From Glycomyces albidus (GTDB taxonomy: Bacteria; Actinomycetota; Actinomycetes; Mycobacteriales; Micromonosporaceae), in the NCBI RefSeq assembly GCF_009451885.1, contig NZ_WIAO01000001.1, positions 62,001 to 126,000 on the forward strand: a stretch of DNA of 64,000 nt. Direction: 5' to 3'. Shown here one piece after another: positions 12,597 through 25,761 of this stretch (its first letter is position 1; every line of letters starts with the position of its first letter). The notes below the pieces were generated by a model. It did no database searches and was not told the origin of the DNA. It saw only the letters and a program-made list of their open reading frames with translations. The translations under genes were made by a program, and so were the position numbers.

Positions 12597-15050
12597 TCAA
12601 TAGCCGAGGACGGCGGTCAGGGTCTGGCCTCCGGTGTCCCCGAGCTGCACCGTGAGACGCGGCCGGTCGCCCGGCTCGAGCTCGATGCCGCGGTCGGCTT
12701 CGATGAGCCTGCTCACGGCGAACGGCAGCTCGATCACCGCGGTCCCCGTGGTGCGCCCGGAGTCGGCGACGGCCAGCGACCCGGCGGCCTCGTTCCGGCG
12801 GACCAGGACCGAAGCCGGGGCATCGCAGCTCAGCCCGCCCGCTTCGCCGGCCTCCCAGAAGTGGGCGGCGATGAGGCGGAGGCTCTCGTCCTGGACCGCT
12901 TGGACAGTGGCGGTGTTGGCGAGGACGCGGATGCGGTCGCCGCCGGCGAGGGTCGCCGTCGCGGACTCGTCGGCGCCCGGGAGCAGGATGTAGGCGTAGG
13001 CCGCGTCCGCCGGCGAGACACCGTGGTCGAACCAGAGGGTGGCGTAGCGGCGGGTATGGACCTCGGTGTCGCCGCCGCCGGTGGTCGGGCCCTGCTCGAT
13101 GTCGTTCCAGGCGCCCTCGCGGGACTCGCGCAGGCCGCGGAGGCCGGCGGCGCCCTCGGGGAAGACGTAGCCGCCGACGCCGTCGAGGTGGATCCAGCGG
13201 GCGTCGTCGAGGCTCGCCGACCAGCCGGTGTCCGAGGACTGCTCGTCGCCGTTGACGCTCAGGCGCGGAGCGCCGTCCTCGCCGAGGCTGCGGTGCTCCA
13301 CCGTGGTCTCGACGGTGCGGCCGTCCGAGGCGGTGATGCCCGCGCCGAGGGCGACGACCGCGTCGTCGAGGACGAACCAGGACTTCTTGGCACGCAGCGT
13401 GGAACCGTCGGCGATGAGGTCCATCGCCGCGGCGGCGTACCGGTCGTCGAGGACGGCGCCGCCTGCGACGGCGTTCTCGGGGAGGTGCTTGACCATGCCC
13501 TCGTCCGCGGCGATGACCTCGCGCTCCCGGGTGTCCACAGTGGTTCCGGGGAGGCGGTACGGGTTCACGGTGGGCCAGAACTCGTCGTTGTACTGGCGCG
13601 GGTCGCCGGGCAGGTAGAGGTAGGTCATGCCGTCGCCCAGGTACCAGCCGTGCAGGTTCTCCCAGTTGCCCATCTCGTAGGCGGCCACGCGGTTCGAGGA
13701 GAGCGAGAGCGCCCAGGACCACTCGGGGCGGCGGGCGAGGACGCGGTCCATGTCGGCGTAGACGCGGGTGTAGTCGGCGCGGGGCGCGGCCTGGACGCCG
13801 GGGTCGTCGAGGATCGACTTGACGCGGCTGATCCCGGCGATGCCGGCCTGCGCGGCGTACGGGAAGGACTCCTGCGAGCGCTCGACCCAGCCTTTGACGA
13901 GGGCGTGCCAGCGCGACCGGTAGTCCTCGGGCGCGCCGACGGCGAGCTGGGTGAGAGCGGTGATGAACCCGGCGCTGTTGTGGTAGTCGCGCTGCTCGGG
14001 CCGGGAGATGCCGCGGCCGTACACGCAGTCCATGAACAGGCCGTCCTCGATGAACGGCGCGTAGGAGCGCTCGACGGCGTCGTAGAGGACCGGCACGTTC
14101 TCGTCGACGATCTCCCCGGCGGAGCCGGCCAGGAGGGACACGGCCAGGCCGGTGGAGGACAGCAGCGAGGTCCCGTAGGCGGCGGCGTAGGGGACGTCGT
14201 CGTGCTGGATGAGCGAGCCGTCGCGGTAGAAGCCGTCGCCTTCGGTGACGTACTGGAAGAGGCTGTGGCGGCCGTCGTCGACCTTGCCGGAGAGGTCGTC
14301 GCGGGCCTGGCGGAGCTTGTCCTCGTCGCGGCCGAGGATCCCGCGCAGCGCGAGGATCACGGCCTTGTCGGCGCGGTTGGCACCGGTCTCGTGCGTGTCG
14401 TTGGCGACGCGCATGTCCGCGTCGGGGCACCAGCGGTCGACGGCGGCGAGGAAGTTCGCGAGCCGCTCGGCGGGGATGCGGTCGTAGAGGATCACGCAGG
14501 TCCGCAGGAGTGCCGCGGGCGAGCCGATCTCCCACCAGTACCAGTTGTCGACCTGTTCGGCGTGCTCGTTGTAGCCGCCGTCGTAGAGCAGGCCGAGCCC
14601 GGAGACGACGGCGTCGGCGACCTCGTCGCTGCCGTACTGGGAGGTGCCGGGAGTGGCCCAGGCGGTGGCCAGGCGGTAGAGCTGCCGGAAGGAGTTGTTG
14701 AAGTTCGAGGCCGAGGAGACCGGGGCGAGGTCGGGCCACACGGCGGTGCGGGAGTCGCTGCGGTCCATGGTCTCCCACAGCGGTGCGGCCTCGGCGTCGA
14801 TGCGGCTGATCGCGGGGGCGTACTCGGGGTCTTCGGGATGGATCTCGCCGCCGACGAGGAGTTCGGCTGCGCGCAGGCGCAACTGGTCGAAGTCGAGCGG
14901 GTTCGCGGGGCCGTCCACAGCGGTGATCCGCGGCGTGTCGGCGGCGGCGGTGAAGTAGGCCGCGAGGCCGGCGCCGGCGCCGATTCCCGCGGCGCCCAGG
15001 GCCCCTCCCAGCAGCAGTCGGCGTTTGAGAGCGGGGGGCGTTCCAGGCAT
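12597..15050 (-). CDS. secreted polysaccharide lyase family 8 (hyaluronate/chondroitin/xanthan lyase type)
   Basis: An 817-residue lyase that cuts uronic-acid polysaccharides by beta-elimination. Start at ATG 15050 gives a twin-Arg signal (ALKRRLLLGGALGAAG). The alpha/alpha-toroid domain carries NWYWWEIGSP, the catalytic Asn region NDTHETGANR and the His/Tyr segment SLIQHDDVPYAAAYG, followed by the beta-sandwich domains of the family. Substrate cannot be told by eye among hyaluronan, chondroitin, xanthan and alginate-like glycans. It is monocistronic and unlinked to a transporter here. Confidence 0.9.
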   Translation of the reverse strand: MPGTPPALKRRLLLGGALGAAGIGAGAGLAAYFTAAADTPRITAVDGPANPLDFDQLRLRAAELLVGGEIHPEDPEYAPAISRIDAEAAPLWETMDRSDSRTAVWPDLAPVSSASNFNNSFRQLYRLATAWATPGTSQYGSDEVADAVVSGLGLLYDGGYNEHAEQVDNWYWWEIGSPAALLRTCVILYDRIPAERLANFLAAVDRWCPDADMRVANDTHETGANRADKAVILALRGILGRDEDKLRQARDDLSGKVDDGRHSLFQYVTEGDGFYRDGSLIQHDDVPYAAAYGTSLLSSTGLAVSLLAGSAGEIVDENVPVLYDAVERSYAPFIEDGLFMDCVYGRGISRPEQRDYHNSAGFITALTQLAVGAPEDYRSRWHALVKGWVERSQESFPYAAQAGIAGISRVKSILDDPGVQAAPRADYTRVYADMDRVLARRPEWSWALSLSSNRVAAYEMGNWENLHGWYLGDGMTYLYLPGDPRQYNDEFWPTVNPYRLPGTTVDTREREVIAADEGMVKHLPENAVAGGAVLDDRYAAAAMDLIADGSTLRAKKSWFVLDDAVVALGAGITASDGRTVETTVEHRSLGEDGAPRLSVNGDEQSSDTGWSASLDDARWIHLDGVGGYVFPEGAAGLRGLRESREGAWNDIEQGPTTGGGDTEVHTRRYATLWFDHGVSPADAAYAYILLPGADESATATLAGGDRIRVLANTATVQAVQDESLRLIAAHFWEAGEAGGLSCDAPASVLVRRNEAAGSLAVADSGRTTGTAVIELPFAVSRLIEADRGIELEPGDRPRLTVQLGDTGGQTLTAVLGY

Positions 15051-15167
15051 GCGGCGTCCAAGTCGAGGCGGCGGGGTGGAGGTCGCTCCAATACTAGCGG
15101 CCGCTTTTCGAACGCATGGTCCGCCGTTGACCTGCGGCCGGACTGCGGACCCGCCACAGTGCACGAT

Positions 15168-16465
15168 TCAGGCGGTGCGGGAGACCAGGTCGTCGGCGCG
15201 GGTGCGGGCGCGGGCGACGAAGGACTCGGTGAAGCGGTCGACGGCGGCGGCGATGGCGGGGTCGCCTTGGGCGTCGCGGGCAGCGGTGAAGCAGGCCAGG
15301 GCGGCCGCGGCGAGTGGGCCGTCGCGGAGCGCGGCGGTGGCCGCGCGGCGGTAGAGGTCGTCGGCGCGGGCGGTGTCCCAGAGCGGTTCGAGGGCGGCGT
15401 CGGCGGCCGCGGCGGCGGCCGGGTGGTCGAGGAGGGCCGCGGCGACGGCGACGGGCACGATCCAGTCGGGTCCGGGCTGGGCGTCGATCATGCGCAGTTC
15501 GAGGTAGGGGCCGCGGGGGCGCACGGGCGGGACAGGGTCGTCAAGTGGTAGTCGAGGTCGTCCCGGGTGGGCGGGCGGGGTCCGTTGCCGCGCAGCCAGT
15601 CACGGAAGGTGAGGCCGCGCGGGACGGTCCAGCGGTCGGGGCCGCGGACGGCCATGACGCGGGCGTCGAGGGCGTAGCGGGCCCAGGCTTCTCGCGGGTC
15701 GCCGGCCGGGACGGGGCGCGAGCGGGTCGGGTCGACCGCCGCCCACACGTGCTGGCGGGTCGAGCGCCACACGGTCGGCTCGCCGCGGCGCAGCGGGGAG
15801 TTCGCGAACGCGGCGATGAGGACCGGGGCGAGGCGGTGGGCGAGGGACCAACGATCGGCGAGGCGGTGCGCGGCCGGGATCGCGGCGGCGTCGACCGGGC
15901 CGGTGCCGCCGGGTCCGCTGTTGTGAGCGCTGTCGCCGTCGAGGCCCGTGTCGAGGCAGACCTGGACGGAGGCGGTGTTGGCCATCATCCAGCGCCCTGC
16001 GCGGCCGTCCTGGTCGAACAGCTCCTCCATGGCCTGGTAGCGGAGGCTGCGGACGACTCTGCGGGGCAGGCGGACCGGGTCGAGGCCGAGCCCGACGAGT
16101 TCGAGGCCCTCCTCGGCGAGGGCCGCGCCGATGCGGGCGCGGTCGGCTTCGAGGTCGTCGAAGCCCTCGCGCAGGGAGCCGGGGCGGGTGCTCAGTTCGA
16201 GGGCGCCGCCGGGCTCGAAGGTGAGGCGGGTGCGGCGCGGGAGGGCGTCGCGGACGCCGAGCAGGGCCTTCACCGATTCGGGGTCGATGCGCCGGCGGCG
16301 GTCGGCCCGGCTCGTCAGGTGCCATTCGACCTCGGCGCCGACCCTGCCCGGGGCCACGGGTACGAAGCCCTGGGAGGCGACGCGTGCGGCGGCGTCGTCC
16401 TCGGTCAGGGGCGCCGCCTCGGTCGGGGTCGCGCTGGTGCGGTCGCGGAGCGTGGCTTCGGTCAT
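15168..16465 (-). pseudogene. egtA: egtA-like glutamate-cysteine ligase, broken by a one-base frameshift
   Basis: The first step of ergothioneine synthesis joins glutamate and cysteine. The N-terminal part (16465 to about 15533) has GAEVEWHL, TFEPGGALELSTRP and MMANTASVQVCLDTG, all EgtA signatures. It runs out of frame after LDYHLTTL, while the next frame resumes with RPRGPYLELRMIDAQPG, exactly the family continuation. Restoring one T in CTGTCCCGCC (near 15531) would give LTTLFPPVRPRG and a protein of about 432 residues. It is therefore either a recent mutation or a sequencing error. GGGAG precedes the ATG at 16465. The usual partners egtB-E are missing. Confidence 0.82.
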
Positions 16466-16515
16466 GCTGACTCCCGGTCTCGGAGGCGGCCGCGGGCCGT
16501 CCCGCACTCAAGCAT

Positions 16516-16534
16516 TCCTATTGGATTAATAGGA
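16516..16534. promoter_or_regulatory. TAGGA dyad box 1 (egtA side)
   Basis: A perfect dyad: TCCTATT (16516-16522), 5-nt spacer, AATAGGA (16528-16534). It embeds a -10 TAGGAT for the plus strand (16530-16535) and a -10-like TAGGAA on the minus strand, placed to transcribe egtA. A 26-codon Arg-rich open frame begins at ATG 16542, where a leaderless plus-strand transcript would start. Confidence 0.6.
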
Positions 16535-16623
16535 TATAGAGATGGTACGACGCCTCCGCGCGTCGCGCAACCACTACGCGCGAGGCGGGCGCCCTGCCCT
16601 CGGTCGACGCAGGCGCACTTGAA

Positions 16624-16642
16624 TCCTACTAAATTAATAGGA
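16624..16642 (+). promoter_or_regulatory. TAGGA dyad box 2 with -10 of leader peptide 1
   Basis: Same 7-5-7 layout as box 1: TCCTACT (16624-16630), 5-nt AT-rich spacer, AATAGGA (16636-16642), one mismatch between arms. The actinobacterial -10 TAGGAT occupies 16638-16643, putting a start site near 16650, just ahead of the leader GTG at 16655. A repressor on the dyad would cover the promoter. Confidence 0.6.
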
Positions 16643-16654
16643 TATGCTGCGGGA

Positions 16655-16771
16655 GTGAACCGCACCCGCGAACGCGCGAGACCGAGGTGGACCAAGAGGC
16701 GCCACATCGATTTCGCGCGTTCGGATTCCGCGCTGTGTCCTTCGGGCGACGCCGCCGGGCCCGTGCGCTGA
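16655..16771 (+). CDS. sulfur-type leader peptide 1
   Basis: A 38-residue peptide with the block RRHIDFARSDSALCPSG. Short actinobacterial peptides with R-x-HID-x2-R-x2-SA-x-C near the start of sulfur-metabolism operons are known as putative leader peptides. The single Cys28 is encoded by TGT (16736-16738), a rare choice in this genome, followed by ten codons and TGA. It starts at GTG about 5 nt after the predicted transcript start, and the winged-helix regulator follows 66 bp downstream. A role in sensing cysteinyl-tRNA supply is inferred. Confidence 0.7.
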   Translation: MNRTRERARPRWTKRRHIDFARSDSALCPSGDAAGPVR

Positions 16772-16837
16772 AACGAGCGCGGTCCGACGGCGACGCCCTC
16801 CCCCGGCAAGTCCCGTCGAGAAGCAGAAGGCGCAGCC

Positions 16838-17386
16838 ATGACTCCCGTCCAGATCCGCACCCGTCCGCCGGCGCACCGCCGCTCGGCCACCGCCGTCATC
16901 ACCGTCACCGTCGAGATCCCCGCCGACGACCCGCGCCTGGCGCGCCGCCTCACCGCGGCGCTCGGCGTGCTCGCACAGAGCGGCGGGCGGGTCGCGCTCG
17001 CCGCCGAAGGGGCGCAGCAGGTCCCGGCCGAACCGGCTCCTGCGACCGCGCCCGCCGCACTCGTCATCGACGTGCCCGGCCGCGAGGTCACCCTACACGG
17101 CGAGCCGGTCGCCCTGACGCGCTTGGAGTTCGAGCTCCTGGCGTTCCTGGCCCGCCACCCGGGGATGGTCCACACCCGGCCCGAGCTGCTCCATTACGTC
17201 TGGGAGACACCGGACCTCGGCCTGCCGGGCCGCACCGTCGACGTCCACGTGCGGCGCCTGCGGGCCAAGCTCGGCGAGTTCGACACGCTCGTGTCCACCG
17301 TCCGCGGCGTCGGCTACCGGTTCGCCCGGAGCACCGACGTGGAGTACCGGCCCGGGCCGGTCCAGGACCGGGGTCTCACCATCTAA
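16838..17386 (+). CDS. orphan winged-helix regulator (OmpR C-terminal type, no receiver)
   Basis: A 182-residue DNA-binding protein. Residues 1-80 contain a short beta-rich segment (TAVITVTVEIPADDPRLAR) unlike a receiver domain. Residues 88-172 are an OmpR/PhoB-type winged helix: TRLEFELLAFLARHPGMVHT, RTVDVHVRRLRAKL, and GVGYRFA. No phospho-acceptor is present, so it likely answers to a ligand or works constitutively. It lies between boxes 2 and 3 and is the best candidate to bind the TAGGA dyads. GAAGG lies 7 nt before the ATG. Confidence 0.85.
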   Translation: MTPVQIRTRPPAHRRSATAVITVTVEIPADDPRLARRLTAALGVLAQSGGRVALAAEGAQQVPAEPAPATAPAALVIDVPGREVTLHGEPVALTRLEFELLAFLARHPGMVHTRPELLHYVWETPDLGLPGRTVDVHVRRLRAKLGEFDTLVSTVRGVGYRFARSTDVEYRPGPVQDRGLTI

Positions 17387-17390
17387 GAAA

Positions 17391-17409
17391 TCCTAGTATT
17401 TCTATAGGA
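17391..17409 (+). promoter_or_regulatory. TAGGA dyad box 3 before leader 2
   Basis: TCCTAGT (17391-17397), 5-nt spacer, TATAGGA (17403-17409): the same layout with two mismatches between arms. It starts 5 nt after the regulator's stop codon. TAGTGT at 17417-17422 could serve as -10 for a transcript beginning at the leader ATG (17430); TAGGAA at 17405-17410 is an alternative. Confidence 0.55.
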
Positions 17410-17429
17410 ATACTGCTAGTGTTGACGGC

Positions 17430-17516
17430 ATGACACCCGCCAGCCTGCTGACGCGGCGGCGCGAGATCGATCAGATGCGCGCCGCCAGCGCCCTCTGTCC
17501 CCGGCGAATGCGCTAG
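17430..17516 (+). CDS. sulfur-type leader peptide 2
   Basis: A 28-residue peptide containing LLTRRREIDQMRAASALCP. It shares RR-x-ID-x2-R-x2-SALCP with leader 1, though the rest differs, so conservation is at the peptide level. The lone Cys23 is again TGT (17496-17498). Five codons follow before TAG. A transcript from box 3 would start at or close to the ATG. The two-way hairpin at 17560-17591 lies downstream, ahead of the sulfur operon. Confidence 0.75.
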   Translation: MTPASLLTRRREIDQMRAASALCPRRMR

Positions 17517-17559
17517 TCGGACCCGCTTCCGACCACTCCCCCGCACCGCTTCCCGTCGC

Positions 17560-17591
17560 ACCGCGCCCTGTTGGCGCGGTCCGGCCGCGCC
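17560..17591 (+). promoter_or_regulatory. two-way hairpin, probable transcription or translation attenuator
   Basis: ACCGCGCC (17560-17567) pairs perfectly with GGCGCGGT (17573-17580). The same middle strand GGCGCGG (17573-17579) can instead pair perfectly with CCGCGCC (17585-17591). The two stems exclude each other. The element lies 44-75 nt after leader 2's stop and 98 nt before the FMN reductase start. No T-run follows, so whether the first stem terminates transcription is unknown. Confidence 0.55.
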
Positions 17592-17688
17592 ACGACGCGG
17601 CGCCGATTCCCCACCGGCCCTTCAGGCCCGCTCCAGCACGCCCACCGCCGGCGTGCCCTCGCACGCTACCCACCGTAAGGACTGCACC

Positions 17689-18219
17689 GTGACCGACAGC
17701 ATCGCCGTGACCACTGTGGTCGGCAATCCCAAGCGCCTGTCGCGCACCCTGGCCGCCGCCGAGGCCGCGGCCGCCGCCATCGCCGGCGCCGAGCCGCGCA
17801 CCGCCCCGATCGACCTCGCCGAGCTCTACCTGGACGGCATCGAACCGCCGCACGAGGGCTTCGAGGCCGCCTTGGCCCGCGTCCGCGGCGCCCAGGTGCT
17901 CGTCGTGGGCACGCCCGTCTACAAGGCCTCTTACACCGGCCTGCTCAAGCTCTTCCTCGACCAGCTCCCGCCGAGCGCGCTCGAAGGGACCGTCGCCGTC
18001 CCGGTGACGATCGCGGCCGCCGCCGAGCACCGGTTCCTCGCCGACCTGCAGCTCCGGCCGGTCCTGGCCGAGCTCGGCGCGAGCCTGCCGGTGCCGTCGC
18101 TGGCGCTGCGCGAGAGCGAGCTCCCCGAACTCGACGCCCACCTGGCGAAGTGGACCGGCGCGCACCTGCCGGCCCTCGCCGCGGCCGCCGGCCGCGCGGG
18201 CGTCGGGGTCCCGGCATGA
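17689..18219 (+). CDS. NADPH-dependent FMN reductase (SsuE/MsuE type)
   Basis: A 176-residue flavodoxin-fold reductase that supplies reduced FMN to two-component monooxygenases. It shows VVGNPKRLSRT at the phosphate-binding loop and VVGTPVYKASYTGLLKLFLDQLP, the SsuE-like dimer/flavin segment. I chose GTG 17689, with AAGGA 7 nt upstream; the open frame reaches back 12 codons without a site. It heads an operon of six overlapping genes that includes a sulfonate-type transporter and a monooxygenase. Confidence 0.9.
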   Translation: MTDSIAVTTVVGNPKRLSRTLAAAEAAAAAIAGAEPRTAPIDLAELYLDGIEPPHEGFEAALARVRGAQVLVVGTPVYKASYTGLLKLFLDQLPPSALEGTVAVPVTIAAAAEHRFLADLQLRPVLAELGASLPVPSLALRESELPELDAHLAKWTGAHLPALAAAAGRAGVGVPA

Positions 18220-18716
18220 GCGCCGTACCGCGGACCGGGGTCGAGCCGGCCGCCTTCCGGTCCCTGTTCCGGGCCCACCCGGCCGGCGTCACGGTGGTGC
18301 TCGCCGACCCCGGGACCGGCCCGGCCGGGTTCACCGCCACCTCGCTCACGTCGGTCTCGCTCGACCCGCCGCTGGTGTCCTTCGCGATCGCGTCGGGCTC
18401 CTCGGCGTGGCCGGCGATCCGCGACACCGAGAGCCTGACGGTGAACTTCCTGTCCGCCGAGCAGCACGCCCTCGCGACCCGGTTCGCGACCAGCGGCATC
18501 GACCGCTTCAGCGGCACGGCCTGGTCGCGCCTGGACACCGGCGAGCCCGTGCTCGCCGACGCGCCCGCGCACCTGCGGGCCGTGGTCACCGACCGCATCG
18601 AGGCCGGCGACCACCACATCGTGCTGGCCCTGGTGGTCGGCGCCGCCGCGGGCGGCGACCACGAGCCGCTGGTCTACCACGCGGGGGGCTACTGCGCCGC
18701 CGCTCCCCTCGACTGA
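18216..18716 (+). CDS. flavin reductase domain protein
   Basis: A 166-residue protein of the HpaC/DIM6-NTAB flavin reductase family: FRAHPAGVTVVLAD, GFTATSLTSVSLDPPLVSFAI and HHIVLALVVGA are typical. It reduces free flavin with NAD(P)H. Its ATG overlaps the previous stop (ATGA). Having two unrelated flavin reductases in one operon is noteworthy; they may serve different monooxygenases or different flavins. Confidence 0.9.
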   Translation: MSAVPRTGVEPAAFRSLFRAHPAGVTVVLADPGTGPAGFTATSLTSVSLDPPLVSFAIASGSSAWPAIRDTESLTVNFLSAEQHALATRFATSGIDRFSGTAWSRLDTGEPVLADAPAHLRAVVTDRIEAGDHHIVLALVVGAAAGGDHEPLVYHAGGYCAAAPLD

Positions 18717-18746
18717 CCTCCGATCCTCTTGAAAGGCCCTTTCCCC

Positions 18747-19811
18747 ATGCGATCCAAGACCACCCGACGAACGCTCCTGGCGGGCGCACCCGCCCTCGCC
18801 GCACTCGCCCTCGCCGGATGCTCTCCGGAGGACGGCGGGCCGGTGCTCGCCGCCGACGCCGACCTGCCGACCGCGGTGCCCGAGGGCACCAAGCTGGTCA
18901 TCGGCGACCCGCCCCAGCAGCTCGCCTTCGAGCTGTCGGGGCTGGCGTCCCTGCTCACCTTCGACGTGGAGTGGGCGAACATCTCCGGCGGGCCGAAGTC
19001 CGCGGAGGCGTTCCGCGCCGAGTCGCTCGACATCTCCTCGGTGGCCGACATCCCGCCGATCCACACCAACTGGACCGGCCTGCCGACGCGGATCGTGGCG
19101 GCCGCCGGCCGCATCGACCCGCTCGAGCATCCGATCTACGACCTCGGCGTCGCCCCGGGCGCGGACGTGGCGTCCATCCAGGACCTCGCGGGCAAGCGGA
19201 TCGCGTACTCCCCCGGGCAGGCGCAGGGCGCCCTGATCCTGCGGGTCCTCGACGCGGCCGGGCTGACGCAGGACGACGTGGAGCTGGTGGAGCTGCCGTC
19301 CACCGCCGACACCTACTCGAACGCCCTCGCGGGCGGGGAGGTCGACGTGGCGCCGATCGGCGGCACCCAGGTCAAGTCCTATGTGAACAAGTACGGGGCG
19401 GACGGGGCGACCACGATCCCGCACGGGCTGCGCGACGACCCGTGGGTGCTGTACGCGCCCGTCGAGGTCCTCGAGGACGCCGGCAAGGCCGCCGCGATCG
19501 CCGAGTACGTGCGCCTGTGGGGCGCGGCGAAGCTGTGGACGCGCGCGAACCGCGACGAGTGGATCAACGCCTGGTTCGTCGAGCACGAGGGCCTGTCCGT
19601 CGAGGACGGCGAGTACCTGTTCGACCGCGAGGGCGAACCGGACTTCCCCGAGAGCTGGGACGAGACCATCGAGCGCCACCAGGAGACGATCGAGATCGTC
19701 GCGGAGGGCACCGGCAACGACGTGCTCGACGCCGGCGACCTGTACGACCGGCGCTTCGAGCCGCTCGTGGCCGAGGGCATCGCCGAGTACGGCGACGGGG
19801 GTGCGTCGTGA
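18747..19811 (+). CDS. sulfonate-type ABC transporter binding lipoprotein
   Basis: A 354-residue SsuA/NrtA-like binding protein with RRTLLAGAPALAALALAGC, a signal with both a twin-Arg and a lipobox (Cys25). The mature chain has the family's SLDISSVADIPPIH and DLAGKRIAYSPGQAQG segments. ATG 18747 was chosen over a TTG at 18729 because it begins the basic signal region and GAAAGG lies 10 nt upstream. Substrate is probably an aliphatic sulfonate or a sulfone. Confidence 0.88.
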   Translation: MRSKTTRRTLLAGAPALAALALAGCSPEDGGPVLAADADLPTAVPEGTKLVIGDPPQQLAFELSGLASLLTFDVEWANISGGPKSAEAFRAESLDISSVADIPPIHTNWTGLPTRIVAAAGRIDPLEHPIYDLGVAPGADVASIQDLAGKRIAYSPGQAQGALILRVLDAAGLTQDDVELVELPSTADTYSNALAGGEVDVAPIGGTQVKSYVNKYGADGATTIPHGLRDDPWVLYAPVEVLEDAGKAAAIAEYVRLWGAAKLWTRANRDEWINAWFVEHEGLSVEDGEYLFDREGEPDFPESWDETIERHQETIEIVAEGTGNDVLDAGDLYDRRFEPLVAEGIAEYGDGGAS

Positions 19812-20655
19812 CGGATTTGAAGGCCGCGACCGCGAGACCGGTCGTCGTTCCGCCGGTCGACGACGAGGAGCTCGCCGCCGGGCGGGCCTCGCGCCCGCGG
19901 GGCAGGCGCCGCCTCGGGCCGGGCCGGCCGATCCGCCTCGGGTTCCTCATCGGGCCGCTCCTGCTGCTCGGCGTCTGGATCTGGGGTTCGGCCGCCGGGT
20001 GGATCGACCCGCGGGTGCTGACGGCGCCGTGGACCGTCGCCGCCACCGCGTGGGACCTGTGGGAGTCCGGCCGGCTCGGCCCCGACCTGCTGGTCTCGGC
20101 GCGGCGCTTCGCGCTCGGCCTCGCCTTCGGCGTGGCGGCCGGACTCGTGCTCGCGCTCGTCTCGGGGCTCAGCCGCTGGGGCGAGGCGATCGTGGACGGG
20201 CCGGTGCAGATCAAGCGGTCCATCCCGAACCTCGCGCTGCTGCCGCTCCTGCTGCTGTGGTTCGGCATCGATGAGCGGATGAAGATCATCACCATCGCAC
20301 TGGGTGTATTGATTCCGATTTATATCCACACGCACAACGGGCTGCGCTCGATCGACGGGCGCTACGCCGAGCTGGCGGAGACGCTGCGGCTGCGCCCGGC
20401 CGCGTTCGTCGGCCGGGTGGTCCTGCCCGGGGCGCTCCCGGGGTTCCTGCTGGGCATGCGGTTCGCCGTGACCTCGTCCTGGCTGTCCCTCGTGGTGGTC
20501 GAGCAGGTCAACGCCACCAGCGGCATCGGGTACATGATGCTGCTGGCCGGGACGTACGGGCAGACCGACGTGATCATCGTGGGCCTGGTCCTGTACGCGC
20601 TGCTCGGGCTCGCCTCCGACTCCATCGTCCGACTCGTCCAAAGGAGGGCCCTGTC

Positions 20656-20680
<25 letters not shown>
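19808..20680 (+). CDS. sulfonate-type ABC transporter permease
   Basis: A 290-residue SsuC-like permease with about six membrane segments. The docking loop is AELAETLRLRPAAFVGRVVLP, and the VRLVQRR end is typical. Its GTG overlaps the binding-protein stop by 4 bp and its 3' end overlaps the ATPase gene by 25 bp, so the transporter genes are tightly coupled. The short patch at 20281-20330 is less G+C-rich than its surroundings. Confidence 0.9.
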
Positions 20681-21437
<757 letters not shown>

Positions 21438-21441
<4 letters not shown>

Positions 21442-22811
21442 GCCGTCCGCCCAAGCAGCTCCACCTCAACGCGTTCCTGATGAGCACCGGGCACCACGAG
21501 GCGTCCTGGCGGCTGCCCGAGTCCGACCCGTACGCGACCACGTCCATCGCGCACTACGCGAACCTCGCGCAGACCGCCGAGCGCGGGAAGCTCGACTCGA
21601 TCTTCTTCGCCGACTCGCCCTCGCTGTGGGGCACCGTCGGCCGCCGGCCCTCCGGGTCCCTGGAGCCCACGGTGGTCCTGGCCGCGATCGCCGCGCTCAC
21701 CACGCACATCGGACTGATCGCGACCGCGTCGACGACCTACAACGAGCCGTACAACCTGGCCCGGCGCTTCGCCTCGATCGACCACATCTCCGGCGGCCGG
21801 GTCGGCTGGAACATCGTCACCACCGCCACGCTCGACGCGGCCCGCAACTTCAACCTGGACGAGCTGCCCTCGCACGCGGCGCGGTACGCCAGGGCCGAGG
21901 AGTTCCTCCAGGTCGCCAAGAAGCTGTGGGACTCCTGGGACGACGACGCGGTCGTGGCCGACAAGGAGCGGGGCGTGTGGGGCGACGACCGCCTGCTCTA
22001 CCCCGCCGCGCACGAGGGCGAGCACTTCCAGGTGGCCGGCGCGCTCAACGTCCCGCGGTCCCCGCAGGGGCACCCGCTGCTGGTGCAGGCCGGGTCCTCC
22101 GAGGACGGCAGGGCGTTCGCCGCCGGCCACGCCGAGGCGATCTTCACCGCCTGGCAGACCATCGAGGAGGCGCAGGCGTTCTACGCCGACGTCAAGCGCC
22201 GCGCGAAGGACGCCGGACGCGACCCCGACACCGTGCTGGTGCTCCCGGGCATCGTGCCGGTCATCGGCTCGACCGAGACCGAGGCGTGCCTGCTGGAGGA
22301 GGAGCTCGACCGGCTCATCGTCCCCCGGTACGCGCTGGAGAACCTCGCCCGGCAGCTCAAACTCGATCCGTCCGAACTGGACCTCGACCGGGAGCTGCCG
22401 GAGGCGCTGCCCACGGAGGACGAGATCGAGGGCGCCAAGAGCCGGTTCACGCTCATCGTGGACCTGGCCCGGCGCGAGCGCCTGACGGTGCGCCGGCTCA
22501 TCGGGCGCCTCGGCGGCGGCCGCGGCCACCGGACCTTCGCCGGGACGCCCGAGCAGGTCGCCGACGCGATCCTCGACTGGGCCGACCAGGGGGCGGCCGA
22601 CGGGTTCAACATCATGCCCGCCGTCCTGCCCTCCGGTCTGGAGGCGTTCGTCGACCAGGTCGTCCCGATCCTTCAGGCCAAGGGCCGCTTCCGCACCGAG
22701 TACGAATCGGCCACGCTGCGCGGCCACTACGGGCTCGCGCGGCCGGAGAACCCCCGGCGGCGCGAGGCGCTCGAGTCGGCCGTCAAGGGCGTGCTCGCCC
22801 ACGTCCGCTAG
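21438..22811 (+). CDS. FMN-dependent monooxygenase, NtaA/SnaA/DszA family
   Basis: A 457-residue luciferase-fold flavin monooxygenase. The N-terminus HLNAFLMSTGHHEASWR, then GRVGWNIVTTA and HEGEHFQVAGALNVPRSPQG, are classic for NtaA/DszA/SfnG-related enzymes. Such enzymes use reduced FMN from a separate reductase, here encoded four and five genes upstream, to open sulfones, sulfonates or N-heterocycles. With a sulfonate-type transporter in the same operon, desulfurisation of an organosulfur compound is the best guess. Start ATGA overlaps the ATPase stop. Confidence 0.9.
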
Positions 22812-22926: not shown

Positions 22927-22973
22927 ACTATTCCCACTTAATTAGTCGGAGTGATCGGACTAGTAGGAATAGT
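22927..22973 (+). promoter_or_regulatory. TAGGAAT region, box 4, before the second transporter
   Basis: ACTATTCC (22927-22934) and GGAATAGT (22966-22973) form 8-bp arms 31 nt apart in an AT-rich island. The core TAGTAGGAATAG resembles box 3 (TATAGGAATAC). The layout is not the 7-5-7 dyad of boxes 1-3, so membership in the same regulon is less certain. It lies 29 nt before the second binding-protein gene and contains plausible -10 elements. Confidence 0.45.
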
Positions 22974-23001
22974 GTCCTCCCAACCGAACCGGAAAGCATC
23001 C

Positions 23002-24105
23002 ATGAGCTCTGCCAGACTGCGCCCCCTCAAGCGCCGCAGCGTCATCGCGGCCGCGGGAGCGGCCCTCACCGCCGCCCCGGTGCTCGCCGCCTGCGGCAGC
23101 GACGACGACAACCCCGCCGAGGCCGCCGCCGACGCCGACGCGTCGACCGCCAGCGGCACGATCCGCCTGGGCTACTTCGGGAACGTCACGCACGCCCCCG
23201 CCCTCGTCGGCCTCGAAGCCGGCGTCTTCGCCGACACCCTGCCCGAAGCCGTCACGATCGAGGAGACCGTCTTCAACGCGGGCCCCTCGGCGATCGAGGC
23301 GCTCTTCTCCGACGCCATCGACATCTCCTACATCGGGCCGAACCCGGCCATCAACGGCTGGGCCCAGTCCCAGGGCCAGGCGCTCCACATCATCGCCGGC
23401 TCCACCTCCGGCGGCGCCGGACTCGTCGTCAAGCCCGAGATCACCGAGGTCGAGGACCTGCGCGGCAAGGCCCTGGCCACGCCGCAGCTCGGCAACACCC
23501 AGGATGTCGCCGCCCGCCACTGGCTCAAGCAGCAGGGCTTCGAGACCGACGAGAACGGCGGCGGCGACGTCTCCGTCACCCCCATCGAGAACGCCGAGGT
23601 CGCAGCCGCGTTCGACGACGGCACCGTCGACGCGGCCTGGGCCGTCGAACCGCGGTACTCGGACCTCATCCTCAAGCACGGCGCCGTCGAGTTCCTCAAC
23701 GAGCGCGAACTGTGGGAGGGCGGCGAGTTCGTCACCACCCACATCATCGTCGCCAAGCGGTTCCTCGAGGAGCAGCCCGCACTGGTCAAGGCGTTCCTCG
23801 AAGGGCACCTGGCCGCACTGGACTACATCGCGGCGAACCCCGAGGAGGCCCAGACCGCCTCGAACGACCGCATCGAGGCCCTCACCGACAAGCGCATCGA
23901 CGACGCCGTGATCGCCGCGGCCTGGGAGAACCTGAGCTTCACCGCCGACCCGATCGCCGCCTCGCTCCAGGGCAGCAAGGACCACGCCGTCGAGGTCGGG
24001 CTCCTCGAGGACGTCGACCTCAAGGGCATCTACGCGCTCGACGCCCTCAACCAGGTGCTCGCCGACCGCGGCGACGCCGAAGTCTCGGCGGGAGACCTGG
24101 CATGA
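23002..24105 (+). CDS. second sulfonate/taurine-type ABC binding lipoprotein
   Basis: A 367-residue SsuA/NrtA/TauA-like binding protein. LKRRSVIAAAGAALTAAPVL followed by AAC gives lipidation at Cys31. The mature part has RLGYFGNVTHAPALVGLEAG and the family's NPAINGWAQS and LRGKALATPQLGNTQD segments. I chose ATG 23002, where the basic signal begins; the frame is open 17 codons further. It starts a second importer, the order being binding protein-ATPase-permease rather than that of the first set. Confidence 0.9.
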   Translation: MSSARLRPLKRRSVIAAAGAALTAAPVLAACGSDDDNPAEAAADADASTASGTIRLGYFGNVTHAPALVGLEAGVFADTLPEAVTIEETVFNAGPSAIEALFSDAIDISYIGPNPAINGWAQSQGQALHIIAGSTSGGAGLVVKPEITEVEDLRGKALATPQLGNTQDVAARHWLKQQGFETDENGGGDVSVTPIENAEVAAAFDDGTVDAAWAVEPRYSDLILKHGAVEFLNERELWEGGEFVTTHIIVAKRFLEEQPALVKAFLEGHLAALDYIAANPEEAQTASNDRIEALTDKRIDDAVIAAAWENLSFTADPIAASLQGSKDHAVEVGLLEDVDLKGIYALDALNQVLADRGDAEVSAGDLA

Positions 24106-24887
24106 CCGACACCCGCACTGCGCCGCGGGCCGACACCGCCCGGGCCGGAGCCGTGGTGCTGACCGACGTGGTCAAGCGCTACGGCCGCGGCCCGGGCGCC
24201 GTCACCGCCCTCGACGGCGTCTCCCTCAGCGTCGAGCCCGGCAGCTTCACCTGCCTGCTCGGCGCCTCCGGCTGCGGCAAGAGCACCCTACTCTCGCTCG
24301 TCGCCGGCCTCGACGACATCAGCGGAGGCGCGATCGAGCACGTCGACCAGCCGGTCGCCATGATGTTCCAGGAGTCGGCGCTGTTCCCGTGGCTGACGGT
24401 CCTGGGCAACGTCGAAATCGCCCTGCGCGTGCGCGGCGTCGGTCGGGCTGAACGACGCCGGCGCGCACTCGAGCTCCTGGAGACGGTGCGGCTCAGCGGG
24501 TTCGCGCACAAGCGGCCCCACGAGCTGTCCGGCGGCATGCGCCAGCGCGTGGCCCTGGCCAGGGCCCTGGCGCAGGACGCGTCGGTGCTGCTCATGGACG
24601 AGCCGTTCGGCGCGCTCGACGCCATGACCCGCGACCTCCTGCACGACGAGCTCGAGCGGATCTGGCGCGAGCAGCGCCTGACGGTGCTGTTCGTGACCCA
24701 CAACGTCCGCGAGGCGGTGCGCCTGGGCGACCGGGTGGTGCTCCTGAGCTCGCGGCCGGGCCGGGTGCTGAACGTCTACGACGTGGATCTGGATCGGCCG
24801 CGCCGGATCGACTCGGCGCCGGTGGCGACGCTGGCCGCCGACATCACCGACGCGCTGCGGGCGGAGGTGGGCCGCCATGCCGGCTGA
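24102..24887 (+). CDS. second sulfonate-type ABC ATPase
   Basis: A 261-residue ATPase with Walker A GASGCGKST, Q-loop MMFQESALFPW, signature LSGGMRQRVALARAL, Walker B LLMDEPFGALD and switch His in LFVTHNVREA. ATGA overlaps the binding-protein stop and its 3' end overlaps the permease gene by 11 bp. Closest in type to SsuB/TauB/NrtD. Confidence 0.93.
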   Translation: MTDTRTAPRADTARAGAVVLTDVVKRYGRGPGAVTALDGVSLSVEPGSFTCLLGASGCGKSTLLSLVAGLDDISGGAIEHVDQPVAMMFQESALFPWLTVLGNVEIALRVRGVGRAERRRRALELLETVRLSGFAHKRPHELSGGMRQRVALARALAQDASVLLMDEPFGALDAMTRDLLHDELERIWREQRLTVLFVTHNVREAVRLGDRVVLLSSRPGRVLNVYDVDLDRPRRIDSAPVATLAADITDALRAEVGRHAG

Positions 24888-25761
24888 GACCGTTCGTTCC
24901 GTCGCGGACGACACCTCGCGCCAGCTGTCGGGGCTCGACGCGCTGGAGAAGACGCCGATCACCGAGACCCGCTGGGGCCGGTTCGCGTCCCGGCTGTGGG
25001 CCGGGACGTGGCCGAAGGTCCTGGCGCTGGTGATCGTCATCGGGTTCTGGCAGCTCCTGTTCCTGTCCGGGTGGAAGGATCCGTGGGCGCTGCCGTCGCC
25101 GCTGATGGTGTGGGACGAGCTGGTCGCCTACGTCCCGACGCCGGGCTACTGGACGGCCATCGCGATCACGATGCAGCGGGCGCTGACCGGGTTCGCGCTC
25201 TCGGTGCTGGTCGGGTCGGTGCTGGGGATCGCGGTGGCGCGGTTCAAGCCGCTGCGCGCGGCGATCGGCTCGGCGATCACGGGCCTCCAGACGATGCCGT
25301 CGATCATCTGGTTCCCGCTGGCGATCCTGCTGTTCCAGATCTCGGAGTCCACGATCATGTTCGTGGTGGTGCTCGGGGCGGTCCCGTCGATCGCGAACGG
25401 GATCATCTCGGGGATCGACTACGTGCCGCCGGCGTGGAAGCGGGTCGGCGCGGTCCTGGGCATGAAGGGGTTCCAGCTCTACCGGCACGTGATCATGCCG
25501 GCGACGCTGCCGTCGTTCGTGTCGGGCCTGAAGCAGGGCTGGGCGTTCGCGTGGCGCTCGCTCATGGCCGGCGAGCTGCTGGTGATCATCGCCGGGCAGG
25601 GCTCGATCGGCGCGCTCATGCAGGGCGCCAGGGAGTTCAACGACGCGCCCCGGGTGCTGACGTGGATCATCACGGTCCTGGTCATCGGCATCATCGTCGA
25701 CACCGCGTTCAAGGCCGCCGACGACAGGATCCGCCGCGCCTGGGGGCTGCACCAGGACTAG
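24877..25761 (+). CDS. second sulfonate-type ABC permease
   Basis: A 294-residue SsuC/TauC-like permease. It has a cytoplasmic N-terminus, about six membrane segments beginning VLALVIVIGFWQLLFLSG, and a docking loop around PPAWKRVGAVLGMKGFQLYRH. GQGSIGALMQGAREF near the end is usual for the family. It closes the island; a strong terminator follows 2 bp after the stop. Confidence 0.92.
   Translation: MPAETVRSVADDTSRQLSGLDALEKTPITETRWGRFASRLWAGTWPKVLALVIVIGFWQLLFLSGWKDPWALPSPLMVWDELVAYVPTPGYWTAIAITMQRALTGFALSVLVGSVLGIAVARFKPLRAAIGSAITGLQTMPSIIWFPLAILLFQISESTIMFVVVLGAVPSIANGIISGIDYVPPAWKRVGAVLGMKGFQLYRHVIMPATLPSFVSGLKQGWAFAWRSLMAGELLVIIAGQGSIGALMQGAREFNDAPRVLTWIITVLVIGIIVDTAFKAADDRIRRAWGLHQD

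Follow-up and report, generated by a model that had tools for sequence, protein, structure and literature searches.

Single-cysteine leader peptides with a near-invariant UGU codon and a shared palindrome in a Glycomyces sulfur island: a likely two-layer switch

In the stretch of the Glycomyces albidus genome analysed here (64,000 nucleotides, hereafter the window; 72% GC), a gene for an orphan regulator stands between two short open reading frames, the second of which precedes a predicted operon for sulfonate/sulfur uptake and oxidation. Each of the two contains one cysteine codon. Cysteine leaders are already known, and the interest of this locus is in the way a single Cys codon might serve as sensor. 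The original prediction was that the two peptides are leaders of a known kind and that, by bracketing the regulator, the pair would let one signal act on both regulator and operon. Does the locus bear this out, and what would be read at the single codon?

Organization of the locus

Table 1. Features of the sulfur island, with positions in the window
Feature	Position	Strand	Remarks
egtA-like gene (ergothioneine-type glutamate-cysteine ligase)	15488..16507	-	divergent; first palindrome upstream
Palindrome, egtA side, TCCTATTGGATTAATAGGA	16516..16534	.	exact TCCTA-N9-TAGGA
Palindrome TCCTACTAAATTAATAGGA	16624..16642	.	overlaps last base of -35-like TTGAAT (16619-16624); abuts leader-1 -10
-10-like TATGCT	16643..16648	+	6 nt 5' of leader-1 GTG
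Leader peptide 1, 38 aa, MNRTRERARPRWTKRRHIDFARSDSALCPSGDAAGPVR	GTG 16655..16771	+	Cys codon TGT 16736-16738
Orphan OmpR/PhoB-type winged-helix regulator	16838..17386	+	Pfam Trans_reg_C 88-162 only
Palindrome TCCTAGTATTTCTATAGGA	17391..17409	.	5' of leader 2
-10-like TAGTGT	17417..17422	+	7 nt 5' of leader-2 ATG
Leader peptide 2, 28 aa, MTPASLLTRRREIDQMRAASALCPRRMR	ATG 17430..17516	+	Cys codon TGT 17496-17498
Strong hairpin within leader-2 coding sequence	17452..17490	+	ends 5 nt 5' of TGT; 15 pairs
C-rich, G-poor 5' UTR 3' of leader 2	17517..17688	+	87 C, 44 G
SsuE-like FMN reductase, first gene after leader 2	17689..18219	+	TIGR03567 E 1.7e-22 (under cut-off); PF03358 E 6e-22
Flavin reductase	18216..18716	+	PF01613 E 2.2e-39
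SsuA-like substrate-binding protein	18729..19811	+	TIGR01728 E 1.9e-21 (under cut-off); PF09084
SsuC-like permease, start not fixed	19880..20680	+	NF008470 E 6.3e-63 (under cut-off); PF00528
ABC transporter ATPase	20656..21441	+	PF00005 E 1.6e-28
NtaA/DmoA-family FMN-dependent monooxygenase	21441..22811	+	TIGR03860 553 bits, over cut-off 279.7

The egtA-like gene (Table 1) matches TIGR03444 with an E-value of 3.4e-78 and 263 bits over profile positions 3-289 of 390, under the cut-off of 370.8. It is apparently split (15168-16507, minus strand), its remainder seeming by eye to be in a different frame (15168-15524); the cause may be an error in sequencing, or the gene may be broken. The adjoining gene encodes a polysaccharide lyase family 8 protein with three Pfam domains (12600-15164, minus strand). 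The SsuE-like FMN reductase gene has a GTG start with AAGGA upstream. On the 3' side of the monooxygenase gene, the stretch 22951-25761 encodes a second SsuA-family binding protein (22951-24105, plus strand), which is over the TIGR01728 cut-off, and an ABC permease (24877-25761, plus strand).

The regulator has no receiver domain, Trans_reg_C being its sole Pfam match. Orthologs were found in 13 of 22 Glycomyces genomes (73-100% identity), and the closest named match is from Glycomyces dulcitolivorans (79% identity). Outside the genus, a search of 394 genomes of the class at E≤1e-27 returned only the regulator's own genome and G233, where the match is partial (49% identity, residues 51-173). 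The predicted structure of the regulator was set aside (pLDDT 46.8).

Conservation of the two leader peptides

Leaders 1 and 2 share RR-x-ID-x2-R-x2-SALC and have one Cys each, encoded as predicted by TGT, the claimed rarity of which was borne out (TGT makes up 5 of the 142 Cys codons counted over 44 window ORFs selected on GC3). The description of this Cys as lying a few codons before the stop holds for leader 2 only, because five residues follow it there and ten in leader 1. The motif had been read as SALCP, but the Pro varies among relatives: the residue after Cys is P, R, Q or L in leader 2, and P or R in leader 1. In the aligned loci, the codon after Cys starts with C in every such case.

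Both peptides proved to be conserved among close relatives, leader 2 in all 13 regulator-bearing Glycomyces loci and leader 1 in 11 of them. Leader 2 sits 3' of the regulator in all 13, at a fixed spacing to the palindrome and to a TAnnGT box. A regular-expression scan caught it in 12 loci and missed it in G008, where by eye it has a far longer C-terminal tail; the codon is also TGT there. All 13 orthologous loci have the same leader-2 core, TRRREIDQMRAASALC, and its six variable codons differ by synonymous changes only. These substitution counts concern the leader-2 core alone; of the 11 leader-1 sequences, the expression for their core recovered 7, and its counts were not used. Leader 1 is missing from G002 and G006, which retain its promoter and a palindrome with one mismatch. 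By eye, these two loci (L053, L054) have an in-frame GTG 7 nt past the -10; starting there, the regulator gene would be leaderless and 17 codons longer.

G012 and G005, in which no ortholog of the regulator was found, have leader-2-type modules too. A third copy of the same type, MKPANAFAQRREVDQMRVASALCR, is present in this genome (G000:C34:29715-29820, L222); it has a related inverted repeat and precedes an ORF of 427 aa whose start is twin-arginine-like. A protein similar to this ORF, encoded behind the same module in another genome, gave no Pfam match at 0.01. The bracketing pair does exist, and the palindrome shared by both promoters adds to the evidence that one signal can reach both units, but the pair is no fixed unit: it is optional, since leader 1 is missing from 2/13 loci, modules exist without the regulator, and there is a third copy. 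Modules like that of the C34 leader were also seen in other Glycomyces genomes (L214, L215, L218, L220), and leader-2-like modules (L216, L219, L221; MRTAxxLTRRREIDQMRAASALCRPLMR) precede other genes in G004, G013 and G019.

Relation to a known leader family

Both leaders resemble NF042934 ('putative leader peptide') and miss its curated cut-off of 27: leader 1 has an E-value of 0.0013 (18.3 bits) and leader 2 of 0.0019 (17.8 bits). Searched genome-wide, they reach only 0.03 and 0.11; this search was lenient (E≤10) and gave matches in 10 of 14 control genomes too, none over the cut-off. With the Ms4527A family NF042936 (cut-off 45 bits), leader 1 scores 14.7 bits, too low for membership, and leader 2 has no match at E≤1. 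As they resemble NF042934 but miss its cut-off, we treat the window leaders as a putative diverged branch of the actinobacterial cysteine-attenuator leaders, a kind already known, and do not file them as NF042934 members. The original prediction, that they are Cys leaders of a known kind standing before an orphan regulator and an uptake/oxidation operon, agrees with this. The same genome has a leader over the NF042934 cut-off, VARRHVDLCRVFSAACLLMRA (L001, 1483-1659, minus strand), which by eye precedes a sulfite/nitrite reductase-like gene.

At E≤1e-4, 233 of 394 genomes of the class have NF042934 matches (229 over cut-off), against none of the 14 control genomes. We examined 90 class leaders, composed of 30 automatic loci and 60 rows picked from a score-sorted list; they are high-scoring and interrelated, no random sample, and span 23 families by hand count; binomial and Fisher values are therefore not to be taken as real probabilities. 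R, D, R and C are spaced at positions -13, -9, -6 and 0 in 90/90 of them and in both window leaders, an invariance for which the profile search itself partly selects. The likeness to NF042934 thus consists of a short ORF with the RRx(I/V)DxxR....C core at equal spacing, often before sulfur genes. The differences are at position -8, which is F or Q in the window leaders and L in 90/90 class matches, and at position -7, which is A or M in the window leaders and Cys in 50/90.

As to placement, leader 2 precedes SsuE-, SsuA- and SsuC-like and DmoA-type genes, and leader 1 the regulator of the island. The better-scoring leaders of Glycomyces precede sulfite/nitrite reductase, rhodanese and dicarboxylate/amino-acid symporter genes (assigned by eye). 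Class-wide, a mechanical choice of the first ORF downstream, made from the 90 leaders, gave 25 ORFs, of which 20 were scanned (L164, L173, L181, L184 and L186 were left out). Fourteen of the 20 are sulfur-linked by their best NCBIfam match, mostly under the curated cut-offs: seven of the NirA/sulfite-reductase type, three mercaptopyruvate sulfurtransferases, one sulfatase, one SsuA, one taurine dioxygenase and one luciferase-like monooxygenase, whose link to sulfur is loose. The others are one symporter and five ORFs without a match at 1e-20.

The TGT codon rule

The Cys at the final profile position is encoded by TGT in 89 of the 90 high-scoring class matches and by TGC in one (L182). In the same peptides, the Cys seven codons earlier (position -7) is TGC in 48/50, and in the longest stop-free downstream frames TGT accounts for 46 of 281 Cys codons. 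GC3 is 0.01 at the final Cys codon versus 0.69-0.97 at the other 17 scored positions. The profile is a protein profile, and so codon choice is independent of the recovery of matches. The codon positions were set by profile coordinates; a first motif regular expression had recovered 21/90 only. In Glycomyces, 62/62 distinct leaders have TGT at the motif-final Cys, followed in 62/62 by C, while position -7 is TGC in 24/24; these 62 come from a regular expression run on the fetched loci, in which ORFs with more than 25 residues past the Cys are dropped (e.g. leader 2 of G008). Class-wide, the base after TGT is C or T in 84/90.

In 17 of the 90 class leaders, at least three Cys are adjacent; position 0 is TGT in 17/17 of these and position -1 TGC in 13/15. 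The rule stands out most clearly against -7 and -1, as TGT is also common at -2 (10/12), +1 (13/16) and +2 (12/16) in these poly-Cys leaders. UGU is read by wobble by the single tRNA-Cys, which has the anticodon GCA. It is worth noting that one position has a fixed synonymous codon in matches from 23 families of the class while another Cys of the same peptide takes the other codon. No statement of this rule was found in the portions of the literature on cysteine leaders and attenuation that were consulted, and the rule may be in print. As far as the literature was searched, the palindrome and the position-specific UGU rule appear to be new.

Promoters and the shared palindrome

The leader-1 -10 box is TATGCT in 10 of the 11 loci that have leader 1, and TATAGT in G008. 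The leader-2 box is TAnnGT at the same place in 13/13 loci. Before both window start codons, a conserved TAnnnT ends at a distance of 6-7 nt. Class-wide, 53/90 leaders have a TAnnnT ending 4-9 nt 5' of an in-frame ATG or GTG, against an expectation of 0.64 at matched random positions. Streptomyces promoters have TAnnnT about 6 nt upstream of the start site, according to the part of the source consulted (PMC8079986). The spacing in the window fits these published promoters, and the leader mRNAs are probably leaderless.

The exact palindrome TCCTA-N9-TAGGA starts at 16516, 16624 and 17391. Three copies in the window were reached in none of 100 shuffles, and these are the only exact copies in the 5.76-Mb genome, in which the reversed control pattern has none. 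They lie in the promoter regions of leaders 1 and 2 and upstream of the divergent egtA. Glycomyces genomes with the regulator have three to seven exact sites each, and the nine without it 0-1. The control pattern reaches a count of five in one Glycomyces genome, and the location of the palindrome therefore weighs more than its count. Ten of the 13 loci have three exact sites; G008, G002 and G006 have two exact sites and a third that has a mismatch. Across the 13 loci, the leader sites are in alignment, and the distance from the first to the second site ranges from 66 to 584 nt. The start of egtA is seen beside the first palindrome in 11/13 loci; for G004 and G017, the 80 nt displayed do not include it. 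In one relative, G030, contigs C2 and C3 contain many TCCTAACGGGGTTTTAGGA-like palindromes, apparently an unrelated repeat.

The palindrome is a candidate operator, bound by a protein if our reading is right. The neighbouring regulator is a natural candidate binder. It is unlikely to be the sole one, because G012, in which no ortholog was found, keeps the module: leader 2 and a palindrome with one mismatch precede an FMN reductase there.

RNA structure and 5' UTR

No Rfam family matched above its gathering score in the window. An RNA partner for UGUC was found neither downstream, where the longest complement is 6.77 versus 6.75 in shuffled sequences, nor upstream (6.20 versus 6.41). A conserved masking or terminator structure was also rejected: pairs changed on both sides amount to 0/44 for leader 1 and 0/15 for leader 2, using 13 leader-2 sequences and 10 of the 11 leader-1 sequences (L047, whose span was truncated, was left out). 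Leader 2 contains a very stable hairpin within its coding sequence, with an MFE of -27.7 for the 45-nt segment versus a mean of -14.1 in synonymous resamples (z -4.4). Leader 1 lacks one (z +0.6), and over the class z averages only -0.8.

The C/G ratio of the leader-2 UTR (172 nt) is 1.39-2.05 in 12/13 loci, including that of the window, and 0.76 in L047. Class-wide it is 1.38-1.60 over the first 150 nt after the leaders versus 1.17-1.19 further on, a modest bias, and one that the leader-1 UTR does not share (26 C, 22 G, ratio 1.18). From its composition, the leader-2 UTR is a possible Rho loading region.

A likely two-layer switch and its alternatives

We consider it likely that the island is a two-layer sulfur switch, in which control at the palindrome is combined with a leaderless mRNA on which the first ribosome reads the Cys-tRNA supply at a fixed UGU. 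The reading frames, their conservation, the palindrome, the promoter layout and the UGU rule are observed features. In the first layer, a DNA-binding factor would recognize TCCTA-N9-TAGGA in the promoter regions of egtA, leader 1 and leader 2. In the second, the leader-1 and leader-2 mRNAs would begin at the leader's own start codon, and therefore a ribosome would translate the leader first. The supply of Cys-tRNA would be read at one UGU, 13 codons past the conserved Arg and nine past the conserved Asp. With plentiful cysteine, we infer, the ribosome would reach the stop codon and the downstream genes would be damped: either Rho would act at the C-rich UTR, or the ribosome-binding site that comes next would be masked. 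When cysteine is scarce, the ribosome would pause at UGU and the downstream genes would be on. Several findings count against such a switch: the missed family cut-off, the lack of covarying pairs, the modest excess of C over G, the loss of leader 1 in 2/13 loci, and a single Cys codon, unusually small as a sensor when compared with the poly-Cys mycobacterial leaders.

The near-invariant UGU(C) could instead be a signal at the RNA or DNA level that happens to lie inside the leader ORF, such as an RNA polymerase pause, an RNase site or an RNA-binding site. We regard this as doubtful, even if the base after TGT speaks for it, being C in all 62 Glycomyces leaders although the residue varies among P, R, Q and L, and C or T in most class leaders (84/90); the hairpin ending 5 nt 5' of the TGT in leader 2 could fit as well. 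However, the TGT is in frame as a Cys codon, with constant spacing to the R, D and R codons (by construction of the protein profile), complementarity is not in excess upstream or downstream, and the hairpin is absent from leader 1 and weak on average in the class. Decoding is the favoured explanation because neither an RNA partner nor a covarying structure was found.

It is also conceivable, though rather unlikely, that RRx(I/V)DxxR in the exit tunnel arrests the ribosome, the trigger being a sulfur metabolite and not uncharged tRNA-Cys. The spacing of R, D, R and C, kept in 90/90 class leaders and both window leaders, would suit a nascent-chain arrest, as would the purely synonymous changes in the leader-2 core; but this residue conservation was partly chosen by the profile search, and the variants with three or more adjacent Cys (17/90) favour a read-out of tRNA-Cys. 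That the peptide works in trans as a functional small protein is very improbable: the amino acids of the leader-2 core are strongly conserved, yet the leaders hold their place before the regulator or operon in 13 orthologous loci, the tail varies in length and sequence, and the codon itself is constrained. Chance ORFs with a common motif, a reading that short ORFs with profile scores under the curated cut-off might invite, can practically be dismissed given the conservation in 13/13 and 11/13 loci and the TGT rule.

Returning to the two-layer switch, we can tentatively propose that one codon suffices as a sensor, perhaps in actinomycete cysteine leaders generally, an idea that is more speculative than the switch itself. 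The nascent RRx(I/V)DxxR would prime the ribosome, and the signal would be read at a single A-site codon, which would have to be UGU and not UGC; in the island, this read-out would be tied to a palindromic operator, one and the same for egtA, the regulator and the uptake operon. Decoding of UGU could report the charging of tRNA-Cys or, as a speculation, a sulfur-dependent modification of its anticodon loop.

Comparison with known systems

Cysteine-responsive attenuator sORFs of mycobacteria were reportedly described by Canestrari in 2020. In Rhodobacterales, uORFC-8-2 upstream of cysS contains Cys codons, and ribosome-mediated attenuation was proposed for it (PMC8632094). In the parts of this source that were available, it is like the window leaders in having Cys codons in a short uORF, and is set apart by its description, UGC being dominant and followed by a terminator-like U run (PMC8632094). 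The candidate cys leaders of Mycobacterium, P. acnes and B. longum have Cys codons near the stop and no conserved terminator hairpin, and Rho-dependent termination was raised for them as a weak possibility (PMC1262725). Going by the sections of that paper at hand, the window leaders share with them a Cys near the stop and the lack of a conserved terminator hairpin; the published leaders have Cys runs, and those sections do not mention single-Cys leaders or the UGU rule.

In M. smegmatis, sORFs with contiguous Cys codons are cysteine-responsive attenuators, according to the portions seen of a review (PMC9031893) and of PMC13236596. Mycobacterial attenuator sORFs are described in the excerpts consulted as leaderless, with Cys codons near their end, and as standing before sulfur genes (PMC4633059, PMC9031893), for example ahead of cysA2 and nirA (PMC4633059). 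As far as these excerpts go, the mycobacterial sORFs have clusters of Cys codons, whereas each window leader has one Cys and no run of adjacent ones. The window promoters differ further from them in having a palindrome in common with egtA. This common palindrome suggests a small Glycomyces sulfur regulon comprising the ergothioneine-type ligase, the regulator and sulfonate use.
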